Shown: in pieces, positions 14,086 through 64,000 of the stretch | Layout: each line of letters starts with the position of its first letter | Position numbering within the stretch: the stretch's first letter is position 1 | Assembly: GCA_001692895.1 (NCBI GenBank) | Contig: KV748182.1 | Location: 3,414,341 to 3,478,340 of the forward strand | Source: Cenococcum geophilum 1.58 | Taxonomy: Eukaryota > Ascomycota > Dothideomycetes > Gloniales > Gloniaceae | DNA length: 64,000 nucleotides | Reading direction: 5' to 3' | The notes under the pieces: model-generated | The model's input: the letters and a program-made list of their open reading frames with translations, nothing else | Told to the model about the DNA's origin: nothing | Databases searched by the model: none | Program-made: the position numbers and the translations under genes

Positions 14086-14269
14086 GCCTCTATTTAGGCG
14101 GCATAAGGCGGCTTCTAATAGGCTAAGGAGTAGATTATATGTTTTGTGGAAATATAAAGCCTATATAGGATAGTGGGGTATAGGGACCCTATGCTATTTT
14201 ATATGCGTTTTAACTAAGGCTACTATCTAGCCTTAGCCGCCCAAATCTCTGCAAACCTTTAACTTGTGC

Positions 14270-20870: not shown

Positions 20871-20879
20871 AGATATACC

Positions 20880-42586: not shown

Positions 42587-45192
42587 ATGGCGGATCCAGT
42601 TACTTACGGAGTGGCCATCCGGAATAAGACAGCGGACACACATAACTCGCGGAAATACTTTGTCTACTCTGAACCTCCAAACGTCACTGGAGGCGGCGTC
42701 CAAAAGACTCGCCAGATCTTGTGGTCTATAACTGATCCGCTTTGCAACAACAGTGAATCGGTCTTTAAGTACACATCGGACTTCTATGGTTTCGCTGGCA
42801 TTTCCAGTAACGCTAGCTCAAAGTTGGACCAGGAAACGAAGGTTTCCATCATCGATTTTGAACCTGTCAAAATTGGGACTATTAAGAACGATGGCACACA
42901 GCTGTTCGTGACTCCAAAGGACGGAGGCTTACAACTTAAGGATGCCGGCAGCAATGCCGATAGTGGAACTTTTAAGATCATTACCGACAACAAAATCCCG
43001 TATCCTAACAGCTACGTCGTTGGACTGGCCCGAAAGTGTGATGGCAGGATCCACTCAGTCGCAGCAGTTGAACTCAAACCCGGTGCCGATCTCGTGTTTA
43101 CGCCCAAACAGCCAATCTTTATATCAAGGGTTCCTTTTAATGCTGGCTACGATGTAGGCAGAGTGCTCGGTTCTCTTGGGCGAAATGTTCGGATTACATC
43201 CAAAGGAAATCATAGCCGTATAGAGGTTGAAGAGACAGGAGATGGTACTTTTCGTGTCATCGAACCGTACAGTTATTCACCTCTGACGGATGGATCTTGG
43301 ATTCGCATTATAGAATTATTTCCTGGCGCTGAGAGCACGGAGCTTGTTTGCTCGCTTTCAGAAAGGCCCCTTTTGGGGGGTGGGTCATACGAGGCTTTGT
43401 CATGGCATTGGGGCGAGGAGGAGCGCAAATCGATTATCAAAATCCGGCGAGGTGACAAAATCTCTTTGTTCGCTGTTAAGCCAACTCTTGAATCGGCCTT
43501 GAGGCATTTCCGCCGACTAGATACTGCAAGATTCCTTTGGGTTGATACAGTTTGTATCAATCAAGACGATTTTGAAGAAAAGAGCTCCCAGGTACGGATG
43601 ATGACTGAGATATATCAAGAAGCAAGCTCGGTGTGCGTATGGATTGGAGAGGAGGAAAATGACAGTGGATTAGCAATGGACTTCATTCAACTCGTCCAAC
43701 AGTGTATTGAACGTTCCGACGATCTTTTATTGGACGGTAGATACTCCCGACAATGGTGTGCTTTATCAGCTTTGCTGAGGAGGCCTTGGTTTAGCCGCCG
43801 GTGGATAATCCAGGAGATCGCTCTTGCGAAACAGGCGGCTCTGCATTGCGGAAGCAGTGAGGTAGCATGGCCTGAATTCATCTTTACTATAGGACTTGTG
43901 AGGGGTCATGTTTACAGGCTGTCCGATATACACGGGAGGGTCCTTCCCAACGATGAAAGTCGTCCTTGGGCAAGTATCCCTACCTCGGGTGCCGCTCGTC
44001 TTGTTGATGTCACTGAGGGGCTGTTTGAAAAATCAGATCACGGAACCATATTAAAGCGATTCCAAAGTTTGGAAAACCTTGTTCTCAATTTGACAGCATT
44101 TAAAGCCTCAGTGCCTCATGACATTATATACGCAATTCTACCTCTCGCCATGGATGCACGGTCGGGATACAAGTCCCCGCAGAAAGCCTTCAGCGGGGCA
44201 GTGGAGACGCAAAACTTCCCAGTTAACTATTCCAAGACATTTTTCCAAGTGTGCCAGGATTTTGTCCGTCATACGATTTTGAAATCTGGATGTATCGATA
44301 TTATTTGTCAGCATTGGGTACCAAAGGAGATCGAGGGCCTCCCGTCATGGATTGGAAATCTATCCGACGCTGCATTTGAAATTGGTCCTAACAGAGAATA
44401 CTATCGTATCAACGCCGATTCGCTGGTTGGGTTACGGGGTCCTGGTAGAAGACAATATAGCGCAGGATTTGCAGTAGGTAGCCGGATGCTCTCGTGGGAA
44501 TTTGGACAAGGGGTGTGCGCTAAGAGCCTGTCTGTAGACGGGTTTATCTTGGAGTCGATCCAAAAGGTGCAACCGTCAGCTCTCAAAGCCTGTATCCCGC
44601 TCAAGTGGACAAGATTCGTGGGGTGGGATGGAGTTTCATCACCGCCACCTGAGCGCTTTTGGAGGACACTTACTGCAAATAGAGATTCCAGTGGGAACAG
44701 AGCGCCATCGTACTACGAACGGCTTTGCGGATATGCCTTCCAGCAATCAGGAAAGTTCGGCACGGATAATGTTCTCGATATCGGCAGCTTGATTGATAGC
44801 GGCTTTTCGCGTGTGGTAAAAGACTATCTGCAACGGGTGCAATCTGTGGTGTGGAATAAAAGACTTATTACGACTGACTCTCCAAAATCGGAAGGAGGGC
44901 TTCAATTACTAGGGTTGGCTCCAGCAGCCACTCAGGTTGGAGATCTGTAAGTATCTCCAGCCTATCTACATTGATCGATCTAATCATCGTGTTAATGCCG
45001 TTAAGTATCTGCATACTATATGGCTGTAGCGTACCTGTTGTTCTCCGGAAGATCGTTAATGAGAATAGTGATGCCGATAAGTACCACTACAAGCTCATAG
45101 GAGAATGCTATATTCACGGTATGATGAACGGGGAGGCCTGTGAGCTACAGAAGAAATCTGAAAGAGAGAGACAACTTTTTGAAATACAATGA
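42587..45192 (+). CDS. HET-domain protein with an unusual N-terminal domain, intact
   Basis: Putative heterokaryon-incompatibility/NLR-type immune effector. The start is ATG at 42,587 in CACCCATGG, as the frame upstream to 42,551 has no ATG. Exons 42,587-44,946 and 45,006-45,192 give about 848 aa. The intron (donor GTAAGT, overlapping an in-frame TAA) is 59 bp and ends in the unusual acceptor TTAAG. It restores GDLICILYGCSVPVVLRK and GECYIHGMMNGEA, the conserved HET-protein tail. Residues 1-178 form a beta-rich domain (KYFVYSEPPNVTGGG, LFVTPKDGG, SGTFKI, FTPKQ) also present, mutated, at 38.6-41.0 kb. The HET domain starts at residue 268: YEALSWHWG, FLWVDTVCINQDD, QVRMMTEIYQEASSVCVWIG (to about 353), then RRPWFSRRWIIQE (398-410). 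No signal peptide, membrane segment or NACHT/repeat region is seen. All motifs look sound. It lies inside the 35.1-45.55 kb T-repeat bracket. Confidence 0.93.
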
Positions 45193-45338
45193 TTCAGTCA
45201 AAGGAAGCAGTTGGATAGCTTGTCGAAATAGGATGTAATGTTGTTGGTGGTCTCCCGTGGATTAGCGATATATTGTAGCGTCCTCCTTTGTGGCTACCTT
45301 GGTATCAAGTGTTGATTGATTGATTTATCTAGTGGCTC

Positions 45339-45552
45339 GGCTCTTAAAATTTGTAGTGCCAAGAATATACTATATACAATTGGGAAATCACGTGAAAAGA
45401 ACCACTGCCACCCCGGCTAAGTCACGTGTGAATTAAACCTGCGGCGCAGCACATCCTCGCAGCCTTGCGCTGCGAGTAAGATTCTTACACCTGGCCTGCG
45501 CTAGCAGGGAGGGCGGCCGACCCGCACCGGCCACAGGGTTGTTTTCGTGGCG
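45339..45552 (-). repeat. T-repeat, long copy (right arm of the 10.4-kb bracket)
   Basis: Inverted partner of 35,096-35,312. It is less mutated: CAGGGAGGGCGGCCGACCCG with CA and TG intact. It lies 150 bp after the HET gene stop and touches repeat Q at 45,545. Confidence 0.92.
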
Positions 45553-45887
45553 TTTCCCAGACATTAGCGCGGTCAAAGCCACGATCCGCTTTGCGAAGGA
45601 GGTACGGAGGACCGCGCGAAAATAGATTTCCCCTTCCTTTTTGGGATTAGTGGTTTTCCCCCATAAGGTCGCCCATAAGGTTGCTGTGCTTAGGGGGTCC
45701 TATGGGCGCAGACCGCCTAAAATCTCGTTGCTTAGGCGATAGAGCCCCCGTAACTCTGGGGCCTTATGGGGAGTAGTCACTAGTCCCAAAAAGGAAGAGG
45801 AAATCTAATTTTGCGCGGTCCTTCGTACGAGTAGGACGTCTACACCCAAGCGAACAACAAGCCGATCTCAATGAGCGAATACTGGGC
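45545..45887 (-). repeat. unmutated repeat Q, interrupted by a MITE
   Basis: Two halves, 45,545-45,600 (GTTTCCCAGACATTAGCGCG ... CGCTTTGCGAAGGAGG) and 45,831-45,887 (TAGGACGTCTACACCCAAGC ... ATGAGCGAATACTGG), match the reverse complement of the RIP-mutated Q copies at 23.7 and 29.4 kb. The break coincides with the element at 45,602-45,830. The Q end contains the ATG at 45,871, which argues against that codon being the true start of the next gene. Confidence 0.85.
45602..45830. mobile_element. MITE with about 60-bp terminal inverted repeats
   Basis: The left end GTACGGAGGACCGCGCGAAA and the reverse complement of the right end GTACGAAGGACCGCGCAAAA continue as matching arms through CTTCCTTTTTGGGA and CCCATAAGG. 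The centre has its own CCCATAAGGT/CCTATGGGCG symmetry. It sits inside repeat Q; a TA on each side may be the target duplication. No coding capacity. Confidence 0.88.
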
Positions 45888-46002
45888 GACAGTAGTGGCT
45901 GATGTCGCCCCGGAAGCTTCGCTTCGGTTGGTAAAGCAACGCTCAAGCTGCATCAACATCATGCCACTCATTCTATCTCTTGAATATCACCAGCCTCCCA
46001 TT

Positions 46003-47572
46003 ATGACTATCGCACGATACTCGCGCAAGCGCAAACGGCCCCACGACGTTTTCGACATCTTACACGCAACTCGCATCGATGGTCGCCCCGACATTGCGTG
46101 CTGGATAAGCGAGTGCCCTCCACCCGTCACTTCCCAAACTCACAAGCATCGCCGCGCGCTAGCCGACATCTCCCACACCCACAACCCTCAATATCATAAA
46201 CCATCTATTATGAGCAGCACGCTCCGAAAGCAGCGGAAAGCAGATGACGAGGAGAATCAAGCGACGCGGAGTCGCACCCGGAATGCGGCAAGGCTGGGGT
46301 CAGCGCTGTCGCTTCGGTCGACGGTGAATTCAATAGCTGAAGATGAAAACCCTATACTTGTCACAGAAGACGCATCAGTTGTCTCAGCCTTCGACACGAT
46401 ATCGGAAGCTCCATCGTTCCATCCACCGACGACTGTCTCGTCGAAGACATCGCGATCTTCCACCCGCACCCGGTCATCATCGCCGAAGAAGCGGGTAGTC
46501 ACAAAGCGGGAGGATCTAGCCTATCTCAGCCCGCGGATCGAATTCAAAGCGATGAGGCAGGCCGAGAATCTTGGAATTACACTCTCTGGATCTGTACAGG
46601 CGCTCTGGGAGCGTTGCGAGGTATATTGCTACTAATTGTCGCATCGGTGAGGTGAATGTTGATTACTAATAGAGAGTGCCAGGCCCGCCGCAGCGCACCT
46701 CCCTTTGCAAGCTCCCTAATCCCTTTTACCGCGACAGACACCGAGCTGATTAACAACACATTGATAGATGCATTTGATATGGCCGAGAAATGGCGCTCCA
46801 CCAATACCACGGAGTCGCACTGGATCTCGGTCGTCGTGGGCCCGATCCTGCACCTGCTCCGGTGCCTCCACCACTTTTAGAAGAAGAATAAATTAGGGAA
46901 TGAGAATATTACAGTGTTCGACATGTACGTTTACTTGTCCCGACTCCGTAGTGTGGCATGGATTTATCCGTGCGGTGCAAGCTTTGCTAATGTTGGTTTT
47001 GCTACAGCGCATCCGTTGAAATATCTCTGCCTGAGCTTTGCCCTTACTCCTCTGAACCTGATTTGTTCAAAGACCTGGATAAGAAAATTGACTATGCTGT
47101 CGGCCTCGACATTAGCCGACATGCCCTCCTTATGTTGTAAGCGGCCCCAACCGTCACTAAGTCTATTAACCAGACCGCCTCCTTCACGAACTACTACCCT
47201 ATGTTCCTTAATATAGAAGTTAAACGCAACCATATAAATAAAGATCCGGCGATATAATTAGCAGCCTGGATAGCAGCGGAATTCCGAAAGCGGCAGCTCG
47301 AAGGTTGGCCTCTCTCTATGCCAGTCTTTGCAGTGGAAATTCAAACCGATGCTTGGCTTCTCCATGTTGTGACGGCTGAGGAAATTCTAAAGAAACCAGA
47401 TGAATTTAATATGTTCTTCTTGGGACCACTAAGGCTAGGAGATACTTATTCTATAGATGATATAAAGAGGTTGTTTAATAACCTTTGTGATATTACGCTG
47501 TGGGGTCAGAACGAGTATAGGTTGTGGTTTGAGAAGGAGATTTTGTCACAATATGACGAGTGTGTAGGTTAA
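46003..47572 (+). pseudogene. fungal PD-(D/E)XK nuclease-family gene, broken
   Basis: Fungal PDDEXK_12-type family, putative nuclease fold, function unknown. The N-terminal half is basic and Ser-rich (YSRKRKRPHD; SSSPKKRVVTKREDLAYLSP). An intron at 46,621-46,676 (GTATAT...AGAG, 56 bp) rejoins ALWERCE to CQARRSAPPFASS, followed by SHWISVVVGPILHLL. The nuclease core is at 47,060-47,330: KKIDYAVGLDI (the motif Asp), then FLNIEVKRN (the ExK motif), then AAWIAAEFRKRQ, with LPVFAVEIQTDAWLLHVV and a normal C-terminus to 47,572. The reading frame is interrupted after ILHLLRCLHHF, and in the core at MLxAAPT and AIxLAAW, where CAA has become TAA, a RIP-like change. The start is uncertain: ATG 46,003 is preferred over 45,871, which lies in repeat Q. 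Ordinary codon use suggests recent loss. Confidence 0.82.
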
Positions 47573-49335
47573 TACTAATAGTTTCTCCTGCATTCAGTTG
47601 CAATTGATAGTTTTGATTGCACGCCACATTTCTTGCGGAAGAGCAACCTAAAACACTAACCGGCTCGTTGACAGCCTCATACGACCTCCACCATCATTAC
47701 AACGCCAGTATCCATATGGATCCATGGGCTGTGGTTGGCTATCTTCATCTTCACAATAGCCGAGAGTAAAGCCGGTGGTAGCCTTGCACATAATTTCGAA
47801 GGTCGGTTTTCTGTGGATGTTCTGCTCGGATGCTTAGTCTCCTGCATTGCTGCATGAAGCAACTTACCTTTAATACCCAGACAGAGCACTAAATGACCAA
47901 TGATAGCCTTTCTGATGCTCTTTGACTCGTCAGCTTCATACCACTTCTCGCATTGGGATTAGTCTACCGCCTCATACTTTTTACTTGATGTACTGGAAAT
48001 GGCTTTAAAAAAGGGACTCGGGAGAGAAGACAAATATATGGCCCGAAAGTGTTGACATTAGAAAGGACAGAAAGTGGAGGACTTTGTACGTCTTTAACTC
48101 GTCAGGCATCTGAAGGTCTAGCTACACAACTATCTTGCTTCCTAAGGATCAAGTGTTACAAATGGAAACACAACCTGCAAGTAGCTAGGAGGAAAAAGGA
48201 TGTATGGAGCGCAGAATCTAGTTGGTGCGACATTCTGCTAGCTCGAATCAAGTGAAGATGAGAGTGTTGGCGATGTCAAGTGTTGATGATAGTGGCATAG
48301 GATTAAGTGGCCGAGTTGTATGCTAGCGCTGTGCAGTTATAGGAAACTGGAGTTGTCTATGGGCGTCGGCATGTAAGGAACCGTGCCTATTATTCCTGTA
48401 ATAAATGATACACGCGTTTTGTGATATCCCTTTTGTGATACCTTTGTGATACCTCTGTGATACGTGAAAGTCCATTCTTTCGAACCGTCTATTCGTGTCG
48501 AAGTATGATATATTATGTTCTTTGATTAACGTCTGATACGGATCCTAGCTAGGCCCACGCAGACTACTCTGTATATAGGGGAAACTTGTGTATTATACAG
48601 GAAGAAAACCCCTGATATGTTGGGGAGGAAAAACCCTACGAGCCACCTCGGTCGGATGAAAAACCCCGTTGACTGTCTTTACACGTAGTCTACAGCTATT
48701 GCAGCCTGTAGCTACGCCCTGATCTTAATTGGATATTGGATCTCCTTGGAACCACTGCATCCTTATTCCAGCTCATCCGTAGCTAGGGTTCACTGCGTCC
48801 TAGCTAGGCCCTGCCGTTAATTGATTGCTATTGCTTGTAGCAGTTTCTTATATCTTGTGGCCGTCCCCTGTATATGCCACCTCTGTTGTTTACCATGTAC
48901 ACCCTTCCCCCCCTAGAGCCTTTCAACGGTGTAGAACTAGCTCCGTAATACCAAAAGGCGAGCGGGATGTGTATGTGTATGTGCTAGGTATCTTTTGCAC
49001 CTAGGCCCCAGTTACTAGGCCCTCTCTAGGGGTGACTAGTCCGTAGAGAGGAGACAAGGAACACCGTGGAGGGTTATTATCCAGGCTGCTAGGCAGAATA
49101 CGGCGCGGACGTGCTCCGCGGGTGATCGCCCTGGGGTTAGGAAGGGGTGTATTCGTTTGATCGCTCGTTCGTTCGCTCGTCCGTCGATCGTGAGGTATTG
49201 TCGTTGATTTCAATTGGGGGTTGGGGGACGTTGATTCCAATGCGCATCTATGAGGATTACACACAGGAGGCCCGGGGTAAGGCGTAGTAGTCGTCTACTG
49301 TGAAGGGGAACCAACAGTGGTGGTTTTCGAGATCT
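47573..49335. other. intergenic, no gene assigned
   Basis: Ordinary composition. Short frames (47,677-47,889 -, 48,049-48,255 +, 49,001-49,264 -) show no domain. A short tandem TTTGTGATACC (four units) lies at 48,418-48,463. A stretch from about 48,540 to 49,270 has a TATA-like element and repeated CCTAGCTAGGCC, which could belong to an old LTR or promoter, but I cannot define ends. Confidence 0.45.
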
Positions 49336-49339
49336 TACC

Positions 49340-49610
49340 ATCCAAAGAGGTTCTGTAGAGCTAACACCAGGTCAAGCAGAATATCTTCAAGTCCTACGGG
49401 AGTTAGAGAACTCGCGACAGGCATATAGACATTACCTTCACTGCTTATCTGATGCAGTGCGTCCAAGGAACTAGAGATGCCTACAGTTGTACAGGTCGAA
49501 TTAAACGAGTCGCGAAAGGCATTAACCCATCTCCGATAGGTTTTGTCTCGATTATCTCTAATTAGGACAGATTCGCCATTGCGAGAAAACGCAACTCGTA
49601 TGCGGTGGAC
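49340..49610 (-). pseudogene. FunK1 N-terminal fragment, little mutated
   Basis: On the minus strand one frame reads NGESVLIRDNRDKTYRRWVN, AFRDSFNST, SSSLDALHQISSEGNVYMP, LEDILLDLVLALQNLFGW (49,590 down to 49,345). DNA matches the RIP-mutated stretch 16,440-16,715, which sits just upstream of the FunK1 body there. This is therefore a detached 5' piece of a FunK1 paralogue. The kinase domain is absent: the frame stops after LFGW. Confidence 0.65.
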
Positions 49611-51475
49611 GTGACAAGCGACTATGTGAGGTAGAAGACGCTTTTATATACAGATGAGAGGATGATAGAGGAACCATGAACAGTGCAGATGGTAGTAAAA
49701 GAATTAAAGGTTGGAGACACGGCAAAGTGTGAGGCTTCGCACGCCTGAGGTAACACCAAGCCAGGTGCCCATGCTGCGCTACGCCGCGCATGGGCCCAAA
49801 NCATGCACTCACTCCTCACAACAAGCAGTGACTGAGGGAGCATCCGACTGATCCAAAAAAAGTCTTTTGTTTGACGCCTAAAATTGGTTACTCGATTTTT
49901 AGGGTCTACTCGATCCCCTGAACCTCCTTGACATTATTGCCTTCTCTCTAGCGCTCGGCCCCGAGTTGAGTAGCAATGCTGATTATTTGAGCGACAGGAA
50001 ATTCTACTAATAACTCTCCGCTCCGCCTGATTGCTTTTATGGCATCTTAAGTCCGAATAAATCTAGAATGTCTTCTTGATAGGCATTCTCGTCTTGTCTT
50101 CACGCTCGCTCCAGCTACTCTTGTTTATATCGGCCCTGATCTTGACATAGCGCTTAACGGCCTTATTTCTAGTCTGACCGCTATACTTAATAAGAAAGGG
50201 AATAAGCCTCGCCATTTTGCTACAATGTATAGTCTTATAAATATTACAATACTACTTGATTGCTTCGAGCCCGGTAAGGACATATATCTCCAACTTCTAC
50301 GATTGCGCCTCTAAAGTGGCACACTTATAGCACACACTCTTAAAGATACGAAACTCTTAGGGTGTATTGATGACTAACTAAAAGCAATCCATAAATACCA
50401 ACTAAAGCTAGAGGTTCCTTTTAGATGTGTTAAAGACTGGCGCGGATATAGACCTAGAGATCACCCTATTTATACACAAATGGTAAACGCTAGTACCTCC
50501 CAGGATGTCTGGCAAGAATTTAAAGCCGCTATAAGTACTCTTAATTAAAGGCTTCTCTAGTGGACATTCGGCTAATAATACTAAGTTAAGGAAGAACCGT
50601 TTAAAGCCTAAGAAGGGGAAATGTCTATCAGAGGCAGGAGACATTAGCCGGAATGATATAATAAAGTGTTGATTGTAGACATATAATAATTTAAAAGATA
50701 GTGTTGAGAAATAATGTTCTTAAGTTTTTCTGTCTAAGGCTGGAGGAATTTGGAAAGAGAGTAAGGTTTTATTTAACTTGGCTATATTTGTAACTATAAA
50801 TAAAGAGTATTACGTTAGGCACTCCTAACTTTAAAAGGCTTATTCCATTAATTCCGGTGTCCTATACTCTAAATTATAGCCATATATACCCTACAATGTC
50901 CTCGTATTCCAGATATTATTTAGATTATTTTCCGCACACTGTACGCTGTTTTGTCTAGCCGTATTATACTTGCGCGTGCACTTATTAGAGTAAAAGTAAC
51001 CGCAACTATATGAGAGTGTTTCCTAAACACATATAGTATGCCTTTAGAGACGAGTTAGCTGCTTTCTGTGGATAGTAAGGAATGATCTCACAAATTTAAG
51101 GCAGAATGCTGGCTCTTCTTTTATAGGAATTTGTAGTTTTATAGCCTTTTACGGAGTAATATTTCTTTAAGCTGTTGGCATAGAACAGAGCTAAGGAAAG
51201 TGGACTTTGGTAGGTACATAAACTATTAATACTTGCCTCTACTTAAATGAGGCTGGATTTATACATATTAGTGCAGATATGTTGGCAGTAAAGATGCGTA
51301 AAAACAGCTGCATGCAGCAAGAAAATGCACTTAGATATTTAGACTATTCCATTTTAAGGTGCTTACAGTGAGGCTCTAAGATATTAAGTAGTAGCCTTGC
51401 AGGTGTCGCTAACCGGTGAACATGGATCCTTTTACATCTTAGACATTAATATCTAGTAATGCTACCTATAAGTTA
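49611..51475. other. moderately RIP-mutated DNA, one ambiguous base
   Basis: An N at 49,801 marks an unresolved base, so the overlapping short frames there are unreliable. A coding-like + run at about 50,085-50,370 (GPDLDIALNGLISSLTAILN; RHFATMYSLINITILLDCFE) is not recognised. A minus frame at 50,408-50,644 has no domain. TA bias is present but weaker than in 2.7-42 kb. Confidence 0.45.
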
Positions 51476-51780
51476 ATGTCTAAAACGCAGCGAAAGTGGC
51501 AGTATCCCGTAAATAAAATGAAGCAGGGGCGCCAAGCAGGCCATTCCACTATAGGCTTAGTGGGGGCATCCCAAGAGGATATTTTCGCTGCAGATGCCTC
51601 CGCCAAGAGGATGGTGCCTGGAATATGCCTCCGAGCGAGCTCGCATGGCATGAACTGCTAATTTGGCAGCGAGATAATGAATATATACGCTCCGGATACC
51701 GCCCTTCATCCGGCTCTTTTACCTATCGCTACAAAGCCTTTATTTATACAGAAGCTCAAAAGCGCTCTACTTTGGTGCTG
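51476..51780. repeat. dispersed repeat R, copy 1
   Basis: Shares GGCGCCAAGCAGG, CATCCCAAGAGGATATTT and CTCCGGATACC with 58,800-58,960. A shorter GGGGCGCCAAGC occurs at 55,598. Its left-facing frame (51,466-51,651 -) is a by-product. It directly truncates the gene at 51,781. Confidence 0.65.
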
Positions 51781-52155
51781 CTAAGTAGGCATGCGAATAA
51801 CAAGTTGATTCCTCCTGCCGCCATAGTCATATGTCCGACTGGCATCATCAGCTGGCGCCTCTTCCCCGCCAGAGGCTACGTATCGTATCTTGTCCTTAAC
51901 AAATCCAAATAGCGACTCGTCTTGCCTAAGCCGACGCTTTGTCTCATCATATTCCCCTTGTGTAAGCTGAAAGGATGTCCACGGGTTTTGATTGCTGTGT
52001 CTTCCCGCTTGGATGTCTCTGAGAAGCGCGATAACTCGGGGAGCTTGGGTGAAGGCTTTCTCGTCGGTTGGCGGAGGCGTCAAAGGTGCGCCTACGAGGC
52101 TTGAAGGCGGTGTGGTATGCTGAGATTCTTTCAGAGGAGGCTGCGGTGTAGACAT
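51781..52155 (-). pseudogene. N-terminal part of a fungal family, truncated by repeat R
   Basis: 124 codons from ATG at 52,155. Pro/Thr-rich start (TPPSSLVGAPLTPPPTDEKA), then RVIALLRDIQAGRHSNQNPW, GEYDETKRRL and DKIRYVASGG, ending QLVIRMPT. This is the beginning of a common fungal family of 300-400 aa whose following part, as I recall it, carries a Uma2/PD-(D/E)XK-like fold. Here the frame ends right after VIRMPT, where repeat R begins, so the putative catalytic part is missing. Upstream is a T-repeat at 52,383. The antisense + frame 51,922-52,104 is a shadow. Confidence 0.6.
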
Positions 52156-52382
52156 AGCCGTATGTCATGGCATGAGATGGGCTGTATCCTGAAGTTGAAC
52201 GGTGGTCATCTCGAGGGGTTTGGGGGTTCGGCATGGTTCAGTTGACTCAGCAACAGCGCCAAGCCAAACACCGAGCAGCGGAGGCAGTGCATCACCGCCA
52301 CAACGCCACACTCAAGACAACACCAACCACAGTTCCCCATTCCATATTCTCTATTCTTCAATCTTAGGAAGTAGACCCTTAA

Positions 52383-52438
52383 CAGGGGCGTGGTCGGTGC
52401 AGGTCGGCCGCCCTCCCTGCCAGCCGGGGCGAGTTTAA
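52383..52438 (+). repeat. T-repeat, short copy (left end of a 3.1-kb bracket)
   Basis: CAGGGGCGTGGTCGGTGCAG then GTCGGCCGCCCTCCCTGCCA and GGGGCGAGTTTAA. It matches the reverse complement of 55,458-55,506 and continues a little inward (GTATTTTATG / GTATTTATG). It is unmutated. Confidence 0.88.
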
Positions 52439-52439
52439 C

Positions 52440-52885
52440 GTATTTTATGGCCTAATCACCTACTGCAAATACCATTAATTATCCTGTCACTAAACTTGTT
52501 CTAGCAATCCTATGGGAATATTTTTGCTTGGTTGGGTATATGCAGAGATGACGATCAGCTGGCCTTTGGACGGGCTACGTGTCAGCAGCCGATTGAACTG
52601 CCCCGCATCCGCACCACAGTCTAAGAATTTATCGCTCAACCCTAGCACAAAGGCGCACTTAAAGCCAAGCTCTATAAGCGTAGGAGTCTTTCTATACTAT
52701 CTGGTTTATCATATCGTTATCTCTATTAACTACGATTGAACCTATTCCGATGGGCCAAGAAACATGGGAGGATAGCTTGTTCCAGGTAGGCCTTAACAGT
52801 AACTAGACATTGTGATTTTAGCTAACGGGGTAGGTATAGAGGGTAAGCGCTTGTTTTAGATATTGTACTAACATGTTTGATTATA
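52440..52885. other. spacer, no gene seen
   Basis: Between the T-repeat and the minisatellite. A + frame at 52,512-52,739 shows no domain. Confidence 0.4.
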
Positions 52886-52889
52886 GGAA

Positions 52890-53383
52890 GTAAGTAGACC
52901 TGCGAATCCTGAGATGTGAGGCTGCTGCTAATTCTGCCACGTTTGGTGGTGTAGGGTGTAAGTAGACTTGCAAATCCTGACATGCGAGGCTGCTGCTAAT
53001 TCTGCCGCGTTTGGTGGTGTAGATAGTAAGTAGACTTACGAATCCTGACATGCGAGGCTGCTGCTGATTCTGGCGCGTTTGGTGGTGTAGGATGTAAATA
53101 GACTTGCGAATCCTGACATGCGAGGCTGCTACTTATTCTGGCGCGTTTGGTGGTGTAGTTGGTAAGTAGACCTGCGAATCCTGACGTGCGAGGCTGCTGC
53201 TGATTCTGGCGCGTTTGGTGGTGTAGTTGGTAAGTAGACCTGCGAATCCTGACGTGCGAGGCTGCTGCTGATTCTGGCGCGTTTGGTGGTGTAGGATGTA
53301 GGTAGATCTGCGAATCCTGACATGCGAGGCTGCTGCTGATTCTGGCGCGTTTGGTGGTGTAGGAGGCAAGTAGACCTGTGAAT
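52890..53383. repeat. 68-bp minisatellite, about seven units plus a partial
   Basis: Units start at 52,890, 52,958, 53,026 and then every 68 bp, each with GTAAGTAGACCTGCGAATCC, GAGGCTGCTGCTGATTCTGG and CGCGTTTGGTGGTGTAG. The two units at 53,161 and 53,229 are identical by eye. As 68 is not a multiple of three, frames through it (53,129-53,446 -) are artefacts. It ends about 130 bp before the HET relic. Confidence 0.95.
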
Positions 53384-53509
53384 GTCTGCCTTTGAACAGG
53401 GACTAATATGAATGTAGCTCGGCAGCTGGCGCCATACCTTCGACAATAAATTTGCTTTGGAATTCTTTAAGCGCTTGCCATCGAGTGTGCTACCGATTCA
53501 ACTTACCTT

Positions 53510-55153
53510 GTGGCTGCTGATTGCAACATTAATCTTTCTAAAGTCAGTGTTGCTGGAGAAAATTGCCGGCTCTGCGCTCTGCTCCTCCGCACAGTTAAAC
53601 GCCACTGTAATGATGAACTAAATGTTCAAATCGTTCGGGAATTGCCAGCGTTAAAAATAGGGAGCGACGGGCCTCGAATTCTCCGGCTGTGTTCTGATGC
53701 AGGTTAGTACCTTCAACTTACATGCGCTAGGCAGAGCCATTACTTATTGCATATATCTACCGCAGAATGTTTGGCTGATACTGGTCAAGACGTCCAGATC
53801 AGCTTCCCAGTCCTACCCGAAGCGGAAAATCCTGCACGTTTTGCACTACTTCGCGCATGGCTTCGTTGGTGCGATAGGTCCCACAAGTGCAATGACCACC
53901 ATGTTGAATCCAATACAGAATTGCCAACGAGACTCCTCTGCGTCGGCGGTCCGAAGGATCCGGGTAATGTCTTGCGTCTCTACCGTCCCAATGAAAACGA
54001 CAGAATGAAATACGTCGCGTTGTCCCATTGCTGGGGCATACCCACCAAAGAGGAAAAACTCAAGTTCTGCACAACGGACGACAATATCGAATCACGGCTG
54101 AGAATGTTTAGTTTATCTGAGCTACCAAAGACATTTCGTGACGCCATCCAGGTGACTCGAGAACTTGGTGTCCAATACCTCCGGATCGACTCACTTTGCA
54201 CAATTTAGTGGAACCAGAAAGATTGGGAGCACGAGGCCAAATGTATGGAAGGCGTCTTCGCTTCGGCTTACTGCACGATTGCTGCAACTTCGGCTGTCAA
54301 CTTAAATGCGGGATTCCTTGATCGGGACGTAAGCAGTGAGTATGTTTATGTTTAAGACAATTCAGGCCGGTGATTCTATGTTTGCACCGACATTGATGAT
54401 TTTGACAACGATGTGGAGAAGGCTCGGCTTAACACGCGAGCCTGGGTAATGCAAGAAAGAGTTTTGTCACGACGAACTATCCATTTTAGCGCCAATCAGA
54501 CATATTTTGAATGTGGAACCGGGGTTTACTGCGAAAACCTTACTAGACTGGAAAGGTAAGAGCTCAACAATATTTAATAGCCTCACATCTTCCTAACCCA
54601 GGTACTCTACTCAGCTCCCTTCGAAAAGAATTCTTCATGCTTGATCCAAACTTCCCGGACCGGCTCCTTGCATCGGGCGACCAACGTACCATGGAATTCA
54701 TTTACTTTCTTTCCGAGGGCTACTCGAAGCGTGGCTTGACAGATGGAACTGACAGATGTGTTGCAATATCCGGGTTAGAGGCCCGTATTGCACGCGCTAT
54801 AGGGTGTGAAAGCAGATACGGCATCTTTCAGCGGTACCTTCACAGGAATCTCCTATGGCAGAGGTCTGACGGAAAGAAGACGAAGCGGATTGGGTACGAA
54901 ACCTCGATCGTGCCATCTTGGTCATGGATGGCATATGATGGAGGTATTCGAGGCGAGTGGAGACCTTCATGATGAACGGTGTGTTGTTGTCGGGAGGGAG
55001 TTTCATGGGAATGAGCATGGGCTGAGGGATAAAAAGTACTACATATTAGTTGTCAGACCGACCAGTGTGGATGGCGAGTATACGAGGATTGGAGTTGGGT
55101 GGATTCAGAGTGACTACGTAGTGAGACAGAGGCTCAACGTGCGAGTCGTGTGA
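53510..55153 (+). pseudogene. HET-domain gene relic
   Basis: A second heterokaryon-incompatibility-type gene, clearly broken: about three in-frame breaks plus an internal loss. Recognisable order: CRLCALLLRT near the front, an intron at 53,703-53,765, FPVLPEAENPARFALLRAWL, then the HET domain YVALSHCWG (about 54,009), LPKTFRDAIQVTRELGVQYL, LRIDSLC, DWEHEAKCMEGVFASAYCTI, RAWVMQERVLSRRTIHF (about 54,440-54,490). After an intron near 54,557-54,601 come SKRGLTDGTDRCVAISGLEA, YGIFQRYLHRNLLW, VPSWSWMAYDGG, and the family tail YYILVVRPTSVDGEY to RQRLNVRVV (stop about 55,153). The usual stretch between SWSWMAY and the tail is missing, and no start codon is evident. It is not closely similar to the HET gene at 42.6 kb and belongs to another HET subfamily. 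It is bracketed by inverted T-repeats. Confidence 0.9.
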
Positions 55154-55457
55154 ACGGCTTCGTATTTGAAAATCTTGCGGAGTAAGTGATGGATACACGA
55201 ATTCAATGTCAAGTTATGAGGTATGGTCTACATAGTTATAGGCTCCGTCTACCTGCATTATGGATGCTTGGTCAGAGTCGGGCTGAGCATGGCGTTTGAC
55301 TATTCTGGGTAAAGCTCATTGCCGAGACTGCTGCGTGAGGTGAATCTGAATACTTTTGCCACATGCTTGGCTGCAAGGCGACTTCCTCTTTGCACGGAAC
55401 GGTTTCAGCGGCAGCATATTTAGCGGTATTTACAGCAGACTATTAAAGCATAAATAC

Positions 55458-55506
55458 TTTAAACTCGCCCCCGCCAGCAGGGAGGGCGGCCGACCCGCAC
55501 ACCCCT
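55458..55506 (-). repeat. T-repeat, short copy (right end of the 3.1-kb bracket)
   Basis: Reverse complement of the 52,383 copy: TTTAAACTCGCCCCCGCCAG, then CAGGGAGGGCGGCCGACCCG, ending CACCCCTG. No matching target duplication could be seen beside the two ends. Confidence 0.88.
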
Positions 55507-56008
55507 GTGGGCTCATACTGTGATAGAGAAGTATTTTCTCGTACCGTGGCAAATCACGTGCAAACAAGCATGGCGCCTTACTAGATATGTAAAGTGGGGC
55601 GCCAAGCCTTTTGCTTACAGGCGATGTTGCACCTGCACTTGGGCGGAAGCCGATTTCGCTAGCGACTGTAGAATCGCCCGTTCTTATTATGGGCAGAACT
55701 GGTCTAGCTAACGTGAGCAGCTGGTGTCAAGCCGGGGCTGCAGCCAATAAAATATAGGTTCAATCCTAGACCATTGCTTATGTAACACGCATCATCCATC
55801 ATGCCCCTCCAGCCGTCGCAGGTTAGGGCGTTGACATCCCAACGCCTTGTTGCATCGACGTTGACCGGACGGTATTCCACGCAGTTTGACGGATTAATGG
55901 CCGCAACAATGCTCGTTCAGACCTTGGGAGGCAGTAGCACTACGTATATTAGTTAGTCCCCGCAAGTATACCTGACAGAGCTTGCTTAACGTAAATGTAG
56001 ACGTTCCA
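55507..56008. other. intergenic, no gene seen
   Basis: Contains a piece of repeat R (GGGGCGCCAAGC, 55,598). A + frame at 55,520-55,711 has no domain. Confidence 0.4.
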
Positions 56009-56452
56009 ATGTCCGAAATCTTGCACGCACTAAGCCGACCACTACAGCCCCAATTTCCTCTTAACTCTCCTCTCTGCCGCCGCTGTGGCTGGAGGCCTCG
56101 ATATCGATGTACCGTGACAGGCAATCAAAATGGCAATGTCGGCCGACCGTACTACATCTGCGTCCGCTGCCACTGGAATTGCAGTCAAGGCCTACAAGAT
56201 CACCACAAAAGATGGATTACATGGGACGATGACCGTGGAATACGTGGTAGTAACCCACGCTGCTATTGTGGCGCCGCCAGTCGTCAGGATCGAGCGGGTG
56301 CTGAGAGTAGCATGCCTGGGTTGGGGTTTTGGACGTGTGCGACGGGAGAATGTGACTATTTTTCCAAGTTTCAGAACGGCTGGACTGATAAGGAGAGGGC
56401 GTTAAGCCTGCCCAATCCTCAATGTGTTAAGTTTGTCCCGTGGTTATTGTAG
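56009..56452 (+). CDS. small zf-GRF zinc-finger protein
   Basis: Intact 147-codon frame. The first ATG is at 56,009; the longer opening to 55,982 begins at TTG. Two zinc-finger-like modules are visible: CRRCGWRP...GRPYYICVRC...RWITWDDDRGI, the GRF signature (CxxC, GRxYYxC, then Trp-Asp), and NPRCYCGAASRQDRAG...GFWTCATGECDYFS, a second C-x-C/C-x4-C module. GRF fingers bind single-stranded nucleic acid in other proteins. This short fungal form has no other domain, and its function is unknown. No break or intron is evident. It lies between the T-repeat copies at 55.5 and 56.5 kb, so it may be cargo of the same mobile region. Confidence 0.8.
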   Translation: MSEILHALSRPLQPQFPLNSPLCRRCGWRPRYRCTVTGNQNGNVGRPYYICVRCHWNCSQGLQDHHKRWITWDDDRGIRGSNPRCYCGAASRQDRAGAESSMPGLGFWTCATGECDYFSKFQNGWTDKERALSLPNPQCVKFVPWLL

Positions 56453-56544
56453 AGTCTCTGTATTTGGAAGCTGTAATTAAGTTATTCTATTTGCAGAATG
56501 TAGGATGTCTTTATATACACAATGAGGATGATTTGGCACTTGAT

Positions 56545-56595
56545 GCCGCCACCGCTAGCAGGGAGGATGGCCGACCCGCTACGGCCATACCCTTG
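56545..56595 (-). repeat. T-repeat, short copy
   Basis: CCGCCACCGCTAGCAGGGAG, GATGGCCGACCCGC, TACGGCCATACCCTTG. Same orientation as the copies at 55,458 and 57,905. Confidence 0.8.
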
Positions 56596-56599
56596 TTGA

Positions 56600-57310
56600 G
56601 AGGCGTTTTAGCGCTCCGTAACGGCCCATACCCGAAGCACCGCCGCACCGCCACATTTCTGCTCTTGTCGAAGTCCTGACACGAGATCCCACCGTTGAAG
56701 TCCCAATGCAAGCCATAGTTGAAATAGAGAGGAATAAGATTATATTCTGGGAACAAAGTAAATCACGCCGTGCTACGAGGCAGCAAAGGCTTACCGCTAT
56801 ACGACTGAGGGCTATACGGCTGAGGACGAAAAGTAAAAAGGACACGTTGCCGATAGCAAGGCCGGTCCAGGTACCATAATTAGACACTTGGCACTTAACC
56901 AAATTTAGTTAGGAAAAAAGGATCCTGGTTGAGAAGCAAAGGAACAGCTGCGCCTAGGCGGAAGCTGGTTTCGCGGGACTCCAACGCTTTAATACAATCC
57001 CCATGTCAGTTGCTGCCTAAATCCACCAGCAGCGCCGCAGAAGCTTGTTTAAGCAATAACTTTTAAAAACCAAGCTCTTAACTAAGCATCAACTTCTAGA
57101 AACTATACCTTTCTCTCTGCTACGAATCTTCGTTCGTGCTCAAGGAATCGTACCTTTTACATGTCTATATGGCCTATTCGATAATATTTGCTACGGGAGA
57201 ACAGGTTATTTATCATAACTTACATAAGTTTTCAGCTGCGCTTCAAATATCATTCTTAGAACCCAATTCTAGGACCCTCTATTTTTAGCTAACCGTAGTT
57301 AGCAGATCCT
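56600..57310. other. intergenic, no gene seen
   Basis: Minus frames 56,511-56,756 and 56,579-56,902 overlap a T-repeat and show no domain. Confidence 0.4.
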
Positions 57311-57951: not shown

Positions 57952-57954
57952 TAT

Positions 57955-58335
57955 TTGCGTACTATTTTCTCAGAACAAAGATAGCAAGCGGGCAAGAAGC
58001 TATTCTGCCCTAGACTGGCGCGTTGGATCTTCAGCTCGGCGTTGTGGCGATCATAAGGCAAAGTAGATTGGCGTGGCGCGGTTGCTAAGTCAACTAAATC
58101 CTTCTGCGTCGCTCCTTATCTCAAGCCAGACATACTTGGCGCTGCATATGCACCACAAAACTTTCGGGTATGCATTATTGTATCCTCTTATCGCGCACCA
58201 CGTTGTGGTTGCTGCGAGACCAATCTTTTAGAATGCGCTAGAAAACAATCCTAAGAGGGGCCTAAAACTGGACCTACGCAACCCCTTAAGCACGGGAACC
58301 CGGAAGTCAGCTATACTTACCTGGTTACAATTCAG
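57955..58335. other. no gene seen
   Basis: Ordinary composition, no open frame with a domain. Confidence 0.35.
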
Positions 58336-58339
58336 CAAG

Positions 58340-58545
58340 ATTTCGTATACTGGTCTAACCTTTGTACTAGTCTAACTTTAGTACTAGTCCAACCTTTATA
58401 CTATTTAGAGTTCTCTACCAGTCAAACGTTTTACTAGTCTCGCGGTTTTACCAGTCGGGCTTTTTCACTAGTCAAACTCTCTACTAGTCAAACTTTTTAC
58501 CGGTCATACGCTTTTACTAGTTAGACTTTTTACTACAAATGTAGA
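58340..58545. repeat. 16-17-bp minisatellite
   Basis: Tandem ACTAGTCAAACTTTTT variants (ACCAGTCGGGCTTTTTC, ACCGGTCATACGCTTTT). About eleven units, related to the mutated array at 22.3-22.5 kb. Confidence 0.9.
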
Positions 58546-58799
58546 ATTTTAGCATAATTTCATAAGAGGAGGCCAGTTTAATAATTTGCAGTCCTACACT
58601 TAGCTCTACAGAAAGCACGCCCTTTTGGCACATGGGCAGATATACGTTTAAAATTCAGCTATCCTTTCTCTTTACATTTATTCTTGTCAATAGTTGGTTA
58701 GGGGTACGTTGTTTAACTACACCTGTCCATTATATATACATCCCAATAAATTTGCGTTACGCTCGAAATTCAGAACCCAATATCATAAGCGTCCTCAAA

Positions 58800-58960
58800 T
58801 CGAAACGTATACTGGGATACTGTTTGTCCGCTGCAGATAATAGGGCACGGCGCCAAGCAGGTCACCCCATCCCAAGAGGATATTTCCCTCCGGATACCCC
58901 GGCCAAGAGCTTAAATGCTGTTAAATATTCTGCCAAAAATAACAAGGCTATATAACAGGA
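58800..58960. repeat. dispersed repeat R, copy 2
   Basis: Second copy of the repeat at 51,476, same orientation. The + frame 58,632-58,955 runs through it and has no known domain. Confidence 0.6.
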
Positions 58961-58999: not shown

Positions 59000-59560
59000 A
59001 GGCTATTAGTTGCTCCCAGACGCTGCGGCCGCACACTTTCTATAGGCAGCATATTTTTTTAGCCGCATAATTTTTAGAGGCTGCCATTACTAGCACTCGG
59101 CTCCTAAGAGACTAATTTTTCTAGGAGGCTAAAGCTACTAGGAGCTTTACCTTAGAAGCCTAAGGCCACTAGGAATTATCTAGGTAGGGCTTCTAGGAGG
59201 GCTTAATATCTAAGAGATTTAATTTTAGGAGGGCTTTCGGTCCAGGAGGGCCGATCCCAGAAGGGATGCGATCCTAGGAGAAATAATTATTCCATTATAA
59301 AGTGCTATAGAACTCCTAAAAACGTATTCCCTAGGAACCTAAGGCTTCTAGAAGACTAATTCTCCTAGGAGCTTTAGGTTCTTAGAAGACTAATTCCCCT
59401 AAAACCTAAAGGCTCCTTAGAGCTTAATCCTAGGAGTCCAGGGCTACTAGGAGACCATTACTGGGACATAGCTACTACTCGGACTTGGAGCTCCTTAGAA
59501 AATTAATCCTAAAAGCCTAAGGCTTTTAGGAGACTAAAAATAGAACACCTAATTTGTCGT
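59000..59560. repeat. degenerate CTAGGAG/CTCCTAG repeat array
   Basis: Repeated variants of CTAGGAGGCTAAAGCTA and TTCTCCTAGGAGCTTTAGG, partly palindromic, with a period near 17 bp in places. Confidence 0.75.
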
Positions 59561-60055
59561 AAGGTCAAAAATAGACCCTACCAAAAATAACCCCCACTAA
59601 AAATCACACCCCCGCCAAATCACACCCATCTCTTCTCCTAGCCCTACTAAACTTCCTAGCGCAAATATACTTATTTCCTAATAAAGGTAGAAAGGCTATA
59701 TAGAATTAGTCTTTAGAACTCAATACTTAATTTTATAAACTGTTTAAGTATGGCTTTTAAAGTGCAGAACGCTATTTAATATCACATAGCTTTCCTTACA
59801 CACTAGATAACTGTAGGGAATCTTACATTTAGTGCAAATAAATAAAGAAAGATGTTTATTCTATATAACCGACCCTTACCCCTTACCTCACCCTTTACCT
59901 TACCCTCACCTCACCTATTACCCCTCGCCCCCCTAAACAAATTACACAATCCTAGTTATTATATCTATTCTATTAAACACTAGGATAGGATTAGATGACA
60001 ATAAACTAATAAAATAAAATAAAAAGCGATAAAGAATAATAAGATAAGTGTGTAG
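59560..60055. other. C-rich and A-rich low-complexity spacer
   Basis: CCCTTACC/CCTCACC-like runs at 59,872-59,937 and an AATAAAATAAAATAAAAA run near 60,005-60,025. No gene seen. Confidence 0.4.
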
Positions 60056-60059
60056 TGAC

Positions 60060-62706
60060 TAGGAAAAGGTCCTATATATAAGGAACGTATAGTTTTAAAG
60101 ATACATTTTGTGCTAAAGGGTTACTTCGCAAACGTTATATTTAATCTCACCCTACTACGGGAGTTTAGAGAGATACGCTTATCGGAAATGCTTTATAAAA
60201 GCAGCTAGAGTGTAAAACTTATATATACGCTTACTAATTGTAAGCTTTTTATTCCTAAGGCAGATAAAGTATATTTTTAGTCTTTTCTCCTTATACAAGG
60301 ATGACTTTGCCCTCTCTAGCGCTTTAGCCGCTTTTAAAATCTTAGCATCTTCTTTAATCTTAACTTTGCTAAGGGCGATATCTATCCTAAACTATCTCTG
60401 GTAATAATTCCGCCGATATACTTTACCTTCCTTAATATTATAGTAGTCTATAACCGCACTAATAGCATTATTGCGTCTATATATTTTATCTTCTAGTAAT
60501 ATACCAGAAAGCATTATAATTACTTTAATAAGGCGTTTGTGTTTAACTAATCTATTATCGCTAGATTCTAAAGTTGCTTTAATATCCTCGCTAAATTTAA
60601 CCCCAGAAAGTTGCCGCTTAATATTAATTACAGCTTACTCATTGTCCTAATTCTTCTTAATATTTTCTAATAGTGCATTTCTTTAACGTCGCCTTTTATT
60701 TATAATCTCCCGGCTAAGCTTTTAGTATTCTATATTCCCTATAGCTTTACTTTTAAGGCTGTGCTTTAGCTTAGTTTAAGCTTTAACTAAGAAATAAATA
60801 CGCGGGTCCTCGTTTACTGATAAGGATTGTTTTATTATTAGGCCCTATAGCCGCCACAGATTAATTAATCGGCTTATTTAGTATACTGCTTTTATTAACT
60901 TTTCTTAAGGCTCTAAGCCTTAAACAATTACCTACGTATCTACGCCAACACGCCACAGAAGGTAGTGCTTTAGGAATGTTTAAGCGTCCGCGTACTATAT
61001 TATAAGGTTCTAAAGGGCGTCACTTATATTACCTAGGTAGTATAGGCGTTAGAAAGGTCTTAATAAAACTAGCCCTATACTATAGAACTTACTATTCTTA
61101 TTAAATGCCTTACCTACGCCGTAATGGAGACTATATAGGCGCGCAACCTGCTAAAATCCCGTAATTGCGCTAAGGTCCTTAATCTATAGCAAAAGGGTTA
61201 AGTATAGTAAGGGCTAGTTGGGTGAGACCTTATAGCTATAAAAAGTTTTAATCAATCGCCGAAATATAGGGATATTGTCTAGGTCTAAACGGAGTAGTAG
61301 CGGCAACTTATTACGCCTGGGCTTAATATATAGCTTACTAAGCTACTCTACGGACGTTAGATTAGGGGCTATAAAAGCTTAGTTAGTAAAAAGAAGGCCT
61401 AGGAGAAAGACGTAAGGGCTAAAAATAAGTAAAGGGTTAAAGATAATCTTAGGAATCGGGAAAGTATTACTAGTTCTCTATAAGCGTAAGGAGAGGAATA
61501 AGGTAGAAAGAGAACGTACGCTTCTTTTATACTAAGATATTCCTTAGTAAATTTAAATATAAACTTAGGCACGATCTTATAAGGCCCGCCTTTTAGGTTG
61601 TAAATAAGTATAATTATTATATATTGGTAGTATAGGTTAAGAAGAGCTTTAGGTCAGCTTGCGGTATAAAGGCCTAGTTATAGTAAGAAATGGACTTATA
61701 TCTAATATCGCCTAACTATATATCTTTTCCTCGTTATAACTAAGTTGGTCTTAAGAACTAGGGCAAGATCCTCTACGTCTATAGCGGGTTTTTGTTACGG
61801 CTTATTACTTAAGCTATATTTCTTCGCTAGTTTCTAAAGCACCTAGAAAAGATATCTTAGCTTTAGCTTACTTTGCTAGTTTAAAGGGTTAACTAGAAAC
61901 GTAATTACCTTATATATCTAGCGGTTTAATTTACTAGCGATTTTCCCTCTAGTTGCTCTCTTATATATAAGGCAATAGTACTTCTAGTATACGCTAAGCG
62001 AGCTAAAAAGCTTTATCCTACGCTATTTCCTACCCCCCTTTCCTTGTTTCTAATTTAGGATCTAGTCGAAAAAGCTATAAAGTAGCTAAAGCGAGAGGAG
62101 TTGGTACATTTTCTTAGGGTCCTTCCTTATATAGGTGCAGTATCTAGAAATCATTAGCTTAAGGTTAGGCCTAAAAGAAAGCCGCTAAACAGGTTTTTAC
62201 TTACTAATACTAGTGATCCTTAATACGGTTAAGGAGATTTATACTACTATCGGCGTAGTCCTACGTCATGAAATCGGATTCCTTAAACTCTTCTAACTGT
62301 TTAAGGTAGTACTCTAGTAGATGGTCTTAATCCTCATAAAGCCATGATTAAGCGGGCGCTTCGCAAGCATCGTCAGATCCAGCGATGCTATCAGCGTCAC
62401 GGTTAATGCCACTGTCAGCATCACAGTCGGCGTCACTATCGGCATCACTATCGGCATCACTGTCGGCATTACTATCGAGGACGGTCGGTTCTATCCTATA
62501 GCTGTCACCGTCGCTGTCCGTATCCATATACTTATCGTCAGTAACGCTAGATAATAAGCTACGATTTGATAATTAAGCGCGCCGCATTCTAGGGAGCTAG
62601 AAGAGAACTTAGGGCAATAATGGCGGTAATATAGGGTTAAGGAGATGGGAGGGCAAAGAATAAGAGAAACGGGGCCTGGATTAAACAGATCAGAGGTAGG
62701 AGCCAT
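60060..62706 (-). pseudogene. RIP-mutated DUF3435 tyrosine recombinase (Starship captain-like)
   Basis: Relic of the fungal DUF3435 family, the site-specific tyrosine recombinases that mobilise Starship giant transposons. Minus-strand reading: MAPTSDLFNPGPVS (62,706), an acidic DADSDADSDADSD stretch (62,470-62,390), LLEYYLKQLEEFKESDF (about 62,325-62,270), DYADSSINLLNRI, GGPYKIVPKFIFKFTKEYL (61,590-61,530), FSPYVFLLGLLFTN and APNLTSVExLSKLYI (61,430-61,330), LYSLHYGVGKAFN (about 61,140-61,100; the family has Arg where His stands), TFLKHYLLWRVGVDT with the presumed nucleophile Tyr (60,985-60,940), IKRQLSGVKFSED (about 60,625-60,585), and C-terminal zinc fingers FICLRNKKL...FIKHFR and GEIKYNVCEVTL (60,280-60,125), to about 60,060. 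Many TAG/TAA stops replace Gln/Trp. The first 350 bp are hardly mutated; the rest is heavily mutated. If it was a captain, the element would extend leftward from near 62.7-63.2 kb. Confidence 0.88.
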
Positions 62707-63190
62707 AGAGTATATATAGCTTCAGCGCCAGGCGCGTAGAAGGGTCATATTTCTGGGATGAATTAGTATGCCTGTTGAAAAGCAAGGGGCACGGGGCAGT
62801 AAGTGAGAGGCTTAACGTTAGACCGGCAAGCAAGAGGCTTAAGGCGGCGGGGAATTTTAGCGACGTGACCTCCAAAAACAGCGACAGAACCCTCCCAAAC
62901 CGGCAGTCAGATCTCCATTTTCTTTTTTAATAGAGTAATCTTAAAACCGTAAACGTGAAGCTTCTGTATTATTAGAGGATTTTTTCTATCAACCAAGATC
63001 GTACCTATCACCCTATAACTCACCACCTGTTTCTATTACCTATTACTGACTAAGTGGCAATAAAGAGACAATTATAAATCGTCGTCAGCATCACCGTCAG
63101 TCTTCTTATCACCTACCCTATATACAAGGGGGTAACACGTATAGGGCAAACGCCCTCCCTACTAGTATGCTAGCAGAATAATACAGCCCA
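62707..63190. other. region upstream of the recombinase relic, with a T-repeat-like piece
   Basis: Mostly unmutated. At 63,140-63,175 it carries GCCCTCCCTACTAGTATGCT, like the T-repeat core. If a Starship left end exists it should be here. I could not recognise terminal repeats or a target duplication. A minus frame at 62,690-62,875 is Leu-rich without a domain. Confidence 0.4.
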
Positions 63191-63196
63191 ACCATT

Positions 63197-64000
63197 TTGC
63201 AAGGGTTCGCTTGTTTTGAAAAGATACTAGCAAGGAAGGCGTCTACCCCGTTCGTGGTACCCTCTTATATATATAGTCTCTTTCCTCCTAGAATTATATT
63301 TGAAAAGCTTTGCAATAGCTACGCATTTAAAATCCTAAAATTTAAGGAAAACCACGCAATCGAGGAGGTCTATATAGAAGAGATTGACAAAGATAGAGAC
63401 GAACTAGCAGCTAGTTCTAGCTCCAGTTCTAGCCCTAAAAACTCTACTATAAAGCACCTTTTACAGCCAAAAACAGCTATTATCTCTAGCGTCTAGAGTT
63501 TAACAACTAATTTATAACTAGAAAATAGAGAGAATTTCTCTAAATTAGTAATAACCGCGGTCTCCTCCTATTTCTGCATTCTTTTCTATCTCTAGGGGTA
63601 GTAAGGAAGAAGCTATACAAGAATATCTAAGACTAGTAGAAAATCTATAAGAATCCCTAGAGTGGGACTTAGTAGATATACTATATAGATAGCTCTAAAG
63701 ATAGTAAATTAAGTATAGTACTAGTATATAAAATAGGAGAGAGAAATAGGATTAAATATATAATAAACTAGAATTAAAGACCCTATATAGAAAAACTAGT
63801 AAGAGAAAAAGAACTAGTAATAGAATAAGGATAAAGAAAAATACTACTAGAATCTATAAAGGAGGCTATTCCTTTTCTCTTAAAGCCCCTAAGAATATAT
63901 ATCCTAAAAAGCTATAATTAGCTTTTCGCTAACTAAGGCTAGAAAAAGACTGCTTTAAATCCTTCTTTAAAACAATAGGGAAAGATAAAAAAGGTAAATA
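63197..64000 (+). pseudogene. unidentified coding-like region, running off the window
   Basis: A 99-codon open stretch to 63,496 opens at TTG (Ser-rich near its end). It is followed, in another frame, by coding-like sequence with TAG/TAA interruptions (SKEEAIQEYLRLVENL, LEWDLVDILYRQL, about 63,600-63,690). It continues past the window. Family not recognised; it may be a mobile-element protein. Confidence 0.35.

Follow-up and report, generated by a model that had tools for sequence, protein, structure and literature searches.

The window (the whole 64,000-nucleotide stretch of Cenococcum geophilum 1.58 DNA analysed here, C7:3414341-3478340) belongs to an assembly of 177.19 Mb in 162 contigs, on which the genome-wide searches were run. 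The genome has been described as 178 Mb with 81% repeats (PMC5023957). The right-hand part of the window holds the relic of a DUF3435 tyrosine recombinase, the captain. Read in 2 kb windows, the repeat-induced point mutation (RIP) index is 0.53 to 1.45 across 4-42 kb and 0.74 to 1.36 across 58-64 kb, the captain side; at 42-58 kb it is -0.47 to 0.17, with GC of 0.40 to 0.50. From the captain's outer edge leftwards, the features are:

62935-62938, minus strand: TTAC, the outer edge of the shared sequence at the element's 5' end (30 fetched loci; terminus pattern search)
60062-62706, minus strand: captain relic, a RIP-mutated DUF3435 tyrosine recombinase with an acidic N-terminal part, a core and a C-terminal finger-like block (profile matches, alignment with a relative on contig C49, stop count)
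60962-60964, minus strand: candidate active-site tyrosine codon, in TFLKHYL, kept, with adjacent motif residues lost (C49 alignment; presumed role)
59874-59922, no strand assigned: G-rich tandem tail behind the captain, variable in length (tandem-repeat finding; 30-locus comparison)
59440-59860, minus strand: block M, immediately after the tail, aligned without a break to sister captain L030 as far as 59445 and also found behind other captains
57952-58886, minus strand: further pieces, 58886-58132 and 58114-57952, found again on C10 with order and strand kept, 20 kb past the terminus of L030
49665-52503, minus strand: sharp-ended repeat block of 2.8 kb, which may be cargo or a repeat in its own right, downstream and on the same strand of the window captain and of the class C captains described below
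42467-57112, plus strand: little-mutated gene island, reading opposite to the captain (RIP index, Pfam)
55976-56449, plus strand: GRF-type zinc ribbon (Pfam)
53708-54205, plus strand: HET (Pfam)
47258-47569, plus strand: weak PDDEXK_12, below cut-off (Pfam)
42467-44947, plus strand: HET (Pfam)
14187-17000, minus strand: broken fungal protein kinase PF17667, of the same kind as the first class B cargo gene described below; no tie to the window captain was found (Pfam and DNA comparison)

The captain was recognised by two minus-strand matches to PF11917, both above the curated cut-off: 61471-61094 to profile positions 86-211 (E 1.3e-30) and 61033-60443 to positions 212-418 (E 2.4e-28). The profile had no match in 14 control genomes, which are not stated to be fungi. 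A much less damaged relative on C49 aligns with the relic in five open pieces that follow in order from 62476 to 60062 (E 1.5e-11 to 3e-56), which together take in the N-terminal acidic region, the core of DUF3435, the segment carrying the candidate active-site tyrosine and the finger-like block at the C-terminus. The matches and this colinear alignment uphold the original prediction of a DUF3435 relic with N-terminal, tyrosine-motif and C-terminal blocks in order, with the C-terminal cysteines and histidines kept only in part. The proposed coordinates of the relic, 60060-62706, also hold, 62706 being the first in-frame Met within the interval and serving only as a nominal gene start, but the edge of the element lies 232 bp further right, at 62938.

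The gene is heavily damaged, with stops at 39 of the 731 aligned codons in the five stretches counted. In the alignment, RPYSLRYG of the C49 relative has become RLYSLHYG in the window, and QHADIRTFLRHYL has become *YADA*TFLKHYL. The residues assigned in this motif, including the tyrosine of TFLKHYL, are candidate catalytic residues. Comparison of the window copy with 29 sisters gave 10,478 transitions and 1,220 transversions, and the simplest reading is that the captain was killed by RIP. The C49 relative itself (C49:752543-753905, covering L001 and L005) has a single stop within profile positions 1-211, no stop within 212-418, and intron-like gaps; a search of solved structures up to E 1 gave none resembling its C-terminal piece.

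A DNA search with the relic gave at least 52 rows (40 of 150 candidates scored), and 30 loci were fetched. The shared sequence starts at one base in all 30, within 3 bases in the raw matches, and in the window this base is 62938, where the terminus reads TTACTCTATTAAAAAAGAAAATGGAGATC on the minus strand. Of the 30 loci, 25 have exactly TTAC. The DNA outside it is mostly unlike between copies, its columns being nearly uninformative save for a T favoured immediately ahead of TTAC. The 24-base terminus occurs once in the window (0.00 expected), and a 35-base pattern with up to three mismatches found 68 places in the genome, 53 of them with none, against 0 for the reversed control. This number is a lower bound and not the full terminus count, as the pattern misses the fetched copy L018, which lacks one base; most of the termini beyond the fetched loci are pattern places alone. 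One of the 68, on C12, is a mere 60 bp fragment of terminus, for which reason C12 was rejected as an extra captain locus whose cargo order resembles that of the window. Another terminus of the family, at a distance of 50 kb on the right of the window captain, has the same orientation (C7:3527309-3527343, minus strand). The window captain may thus sit within another element's cargo, and the pair could be nested elements or elements in series.

Behind the captain, the window copy and L030 form one unbroken alignment from 62938 to 59445 (~3.5 kb), continued in pieces to 57952 (~5 kb). Block M has at least 39 other places among the matches listed; seven follow a terminus on its own strand at up to 40 kb and none is on the opposite strand; the single upstream place is the C10 row again, counted against another terminus. 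Six further places (C49, C84, C26, C67, C6 and C45) lie, judged by eye, 2.5 to 20 kb behind PF11917 matches for which no terminus of the family is listed. The recurrence of the next pieces, 57952-58886, 20 kb behind the L030 terminus implies ~15 kb of extra DNA at that place on C10; among the eight listed places of these pieces, two rows, those of C10 and of the C12 fragment, are downstream with the strand kept, one is upstream and one opposite. On the same strand, the 2.8 kb block follows each of the four fetched captains of class C. Of its 25 listed places, five are downstream on the same strand, including one behind the C12 fragment, and one is opposite; one row also counts as upstream of another terminus. 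All these block counts are among the matches listed, with rows chosen by query range.

Across the 30 fetched loci the same terminus precedes at least four kinds of DNA. In our own reading of the comparison, class A follows the tail at 18 loci, class B at 5 (with L025 added) and class C at 4, and class D comprises the window and L030. The first gene of class B is a broken PF17667 kinase, and L015, L017 and L023 are colinear here over 10.4 kb. The DNA 13.0-14.4 kb behind the L015 5' end gave 12 rows at nine loci, its own included (all 11 candidates scored). At seven of these nine, a terminus of the family lies upstream at up to 40 kb with the strand kept, and at none of them does one lie on the wrong side or strand; the two with no listed terminus are on C17 and C11. 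The following stretch, 14.4-24.4 kb behind the 5' end, is common to C9, C45 and C31, with insertions, and partly to C11, and class B DNA is thus common to three loci as far as 24.4 kb. Within class A, L010 and L026 share ~9.4 kb with breaks, and L022 shares just ~0.34 kb past the tail.

Cryptons are short one-gene elements with both ends close to the recombinase gene, and they are known from fungi and, like the family described here, belong to the transposons with a tyrosine recombinase. A small Crypton-like element of ~3 kb, carrying the recombinase gene only, would account for the many copies of a 3 kb captain-plus-tail unit and for the first pairwise matches, which all stopped at the tail. 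It is nonetheless highly improbable, as the copies have no common 3' end and share DNA past the tail over ~0.4 kb (the window and L030), at least 1.4 kb, ~9.4 kb with breaks, or 24.4 kb; a closed 3.07 kb unit of this kind is ruled out by that shared DNA. The four or more kinds of trailing DNA, and class B DNA shared to 24.4 kb, fit Starships and not a small Crypton. The family also differs from Cryptons in that its recombinase matches PF11917, and the Crypton and Starship recombinase groups are described as very distantly related (PMC12134995).

We conclude that the window relic is very probably the RIP-killed captain of one copy in a many-copy Starship family. The exact 5' end, and the long shared DNA that sister copies carry to its left, bear out the original prediction of a fossil captain-type recombinase at an element end, reading left. 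By analogy with published Starships, the captain, encoded just inside the 5' end, would excise the element and paste it into TTAC sites, and cargo would trail leftward from it; after many copies had arisen, RIP would have ruined them. Both transposition itself and the enzyme's use of TTAC we infer from that analogy.

Three loci share their outer flank as well. L010, L015 and L026 all lie against repeat R (448 first-look candidates, 40 scored) and use the same TTAC of it. Two other R copies run through this TTAC (5' side only); the R target keeps TTAC, and position 12 is T in both empty R copies read. L015 is followed by class B DNA and L010 and L026 by class A, and their captains fall on different tree branches. 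The different trailing DNA and the different branches point to separate insertions at one site; an old single insertion shared by all three, with later exchange, is possible. The captain DNA tree groups class B plus L025 with a support of 1.000 and the window plus L030 with 0.999. Class C is scattered in it, and as the local supports there are low, down to 0.072, the tree only suggests that cargo has been exchanged between captain branches. A wider reading, to which we give slightly less than an even chance, is that one captain family multiplied to dozens of copies, and that the same terminus joined to different cargo sets, and cargo blocks shared across captain branches, reflect captain-cargo exchange; RIP would then have silenced all copies, leaving a copy-by-copy record of cargo capture.

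The original prediction also held that the relic could be the scar of a giant element. The window copy itself shares DNA with its sister captain, in pieces, as far as 57952. A giant Starship spanning much of the window would have its captain at 62.9 kb, cargo including the HET, GRF, nuclease and kinase genes, and a left end far to the left or outside. In its favour, the captain faces left, sister elements reach at least 24.4 kb, a kinase of the class B type lies at 14.2-17.0 kb on the captain's strand, and class C elements also contain the 2.8 kb block found here at 49.7-52.5 kb. We nevertheless consider it unlikely, with neither a 3' end nor an empty site found. Both the kinase block and the 2.8 kb block could be independent repeats, as ~20 block places have no nearby terminus.

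The HET gene had been proposed as plausible cargo. This finds no support in the HET block (54950-52882): none of its 11 listed places follows any of the 68 termini at up to 40 kb with the strand kept, and one is opposite. The minisatellite block at 57.1-57.9 kb, which also weighs against a giant element, has one of its 32 listed rows downstream on the same strand, behind the C12 fragment, and three in other orientations. No evidence here ties the HET, GRF, nuclease-like or DUF6594 genes of the window to the captain. Chance figures for the blocks, a guide only because they assume independent rows although the C5 and C11 rows repeat, are 5.8e-15 for class B, 1.9e-08 for block M, 3.9e-05 for the 2.8 kb block, 0.06 for the 58.1-58.9 block, 1 for the HET block and 1 for the minisatellite block, with the C12 fragment left out for the 2.8 kb (k = 4/25), 58.1-58.9 (k = 1/8) and minisatellite (k = 0/32) blocks.

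The same observations can be read as a short or cut-down element, consisting of the captain and a few kb (to ~58 kb), with host DNA and other repeats making up the genes further left. Unbroken sharing with the sister copy stops at 59445 and the pieces end at 57952, the island at 42-58 kb is little mutated and reads in the opposite direction, and 57113 is a repeat edge, where many genome matches stop exactly on that base. This reading is possible, if tentative, given that the sister elements are much longer and that the 2.8 kb block, which lies further left, is also found behind class C captains.

Terminal inverted repeats are present in most, not all, known Starships. In the DNA fetched, none of the copies showed a 3' end, a direct repeat to match the first, or an inverted repeat. 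Reading inward from the 5' end, the right half of repeat R did not appear in the first 14.4 kb of L010 and L026, or in the first 24.4 kb of L015. A check for repeat ends at the window copy, as had been proposed, gave the TTAC at 62938 and no second direct repeat; left of ~60 kb there are 12 loose 10-base inverted matches to the terminus, none then followed by TTAC, and a 13-base inverted terminus pattern is no more frequent in the window than expected by chance. With no inverted terminus and adjoining TTAC seen at the window copy, a giant element is no more than a possibility. A search of the genome with the outer flank found no empty site for the window copy. L068, a 132 bp relative of this flank, was rejected as one as its match ends ~54 bp short of the junction, and a TTAC-like stretch after block M in L060-L063 was rejected as a 3' end as related sequence continues past it.

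The closest known elements are the Starships of the Pezizomycotina, which are led by a DUF3435 captain; the window captain was compared with theirs through PF11917 membership. The DUF3435 recombinase is the gene next to the 5' edge, with 232 bp here to the first in-frame Met; the captain of the Sanctuary Starship is given as ~350 bp from the 5' edge (PMC12506042). Also alike are the sharp TTAC end (5' side), the C-terminal finger-like part and the variable trailing DNA, which reaches at least 24.4 kb in sister copies and, in the window copy, 3.5 kb unbroken and 5 kb in pieces. The family differs from known Starships in having at least 68 termini in one genome, with nearly all inspected copies broken by RIP, and in that no 3' end was found in any copy. 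The Hephaestus family shares TTAC at the junction. Compared by target motif, however, the R target has T at position 12, where the canonical Hephaestus target, TTAC(N7)A (PMC12153272), has A, and with the R target ending in T we assign no Starship family.

In the literature searched, no paper paired Starship with FunK1 or combined Starship, captain and 'high copy number', and one paper mentions both Cenococcum and Starship, in separate places. Most captain-like genes are without known element borders, one survey counting 10,628 orphan captain-like genes against 143 Starships (quoted in PMC12289983). Here, dozens of copies of one family fix the 5' border to the base. One genome, without other strains, shows which DNA travels behind the captain, and cargo gain and captain-cargo exchange become testable inside it. 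This points to many dead Starships lying hidden in large genomes rich in RIP.

Other repeats were noted along the window. On C12, a block ending at 57113 is followed after 10 bp by the 2.8 kb block, and judged from this arrangement the DNA from 57112 to ~52.3 kb, with the GRF and HET genes, looks as if it had been inserted. The multi-copy HET block contains a 68-base tandem repeat (52884-53383) and is flanked by inverted repeats of ~98 bp that are 79% alike (52397-52494 and 55404-55500), and may perhaps be a mobile HET unit. Comparison of 46321-52418 with C44:249039-261271 showed 5.6 kb recurring at 88%, a stretch that takes in the nuclease-like gene and some of the 2.8 kb block, with a further piece past an interruption. 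A repeat block with a 17-base tandem array (17914-22308) also occurs 6-14 kb behind captains L031 and L010 in the same orientation, and may be an unrelated nested repeat. At the window's left edge, pieces of a DUF6594 gene (761-1949, with Pfam matches at 761-1615) lie in little-mutated DNA. Just outside the captain, a short repeat of ~150 bp (63122-63270) matches both strands of its copies and resembles a small inverted-repeat element.
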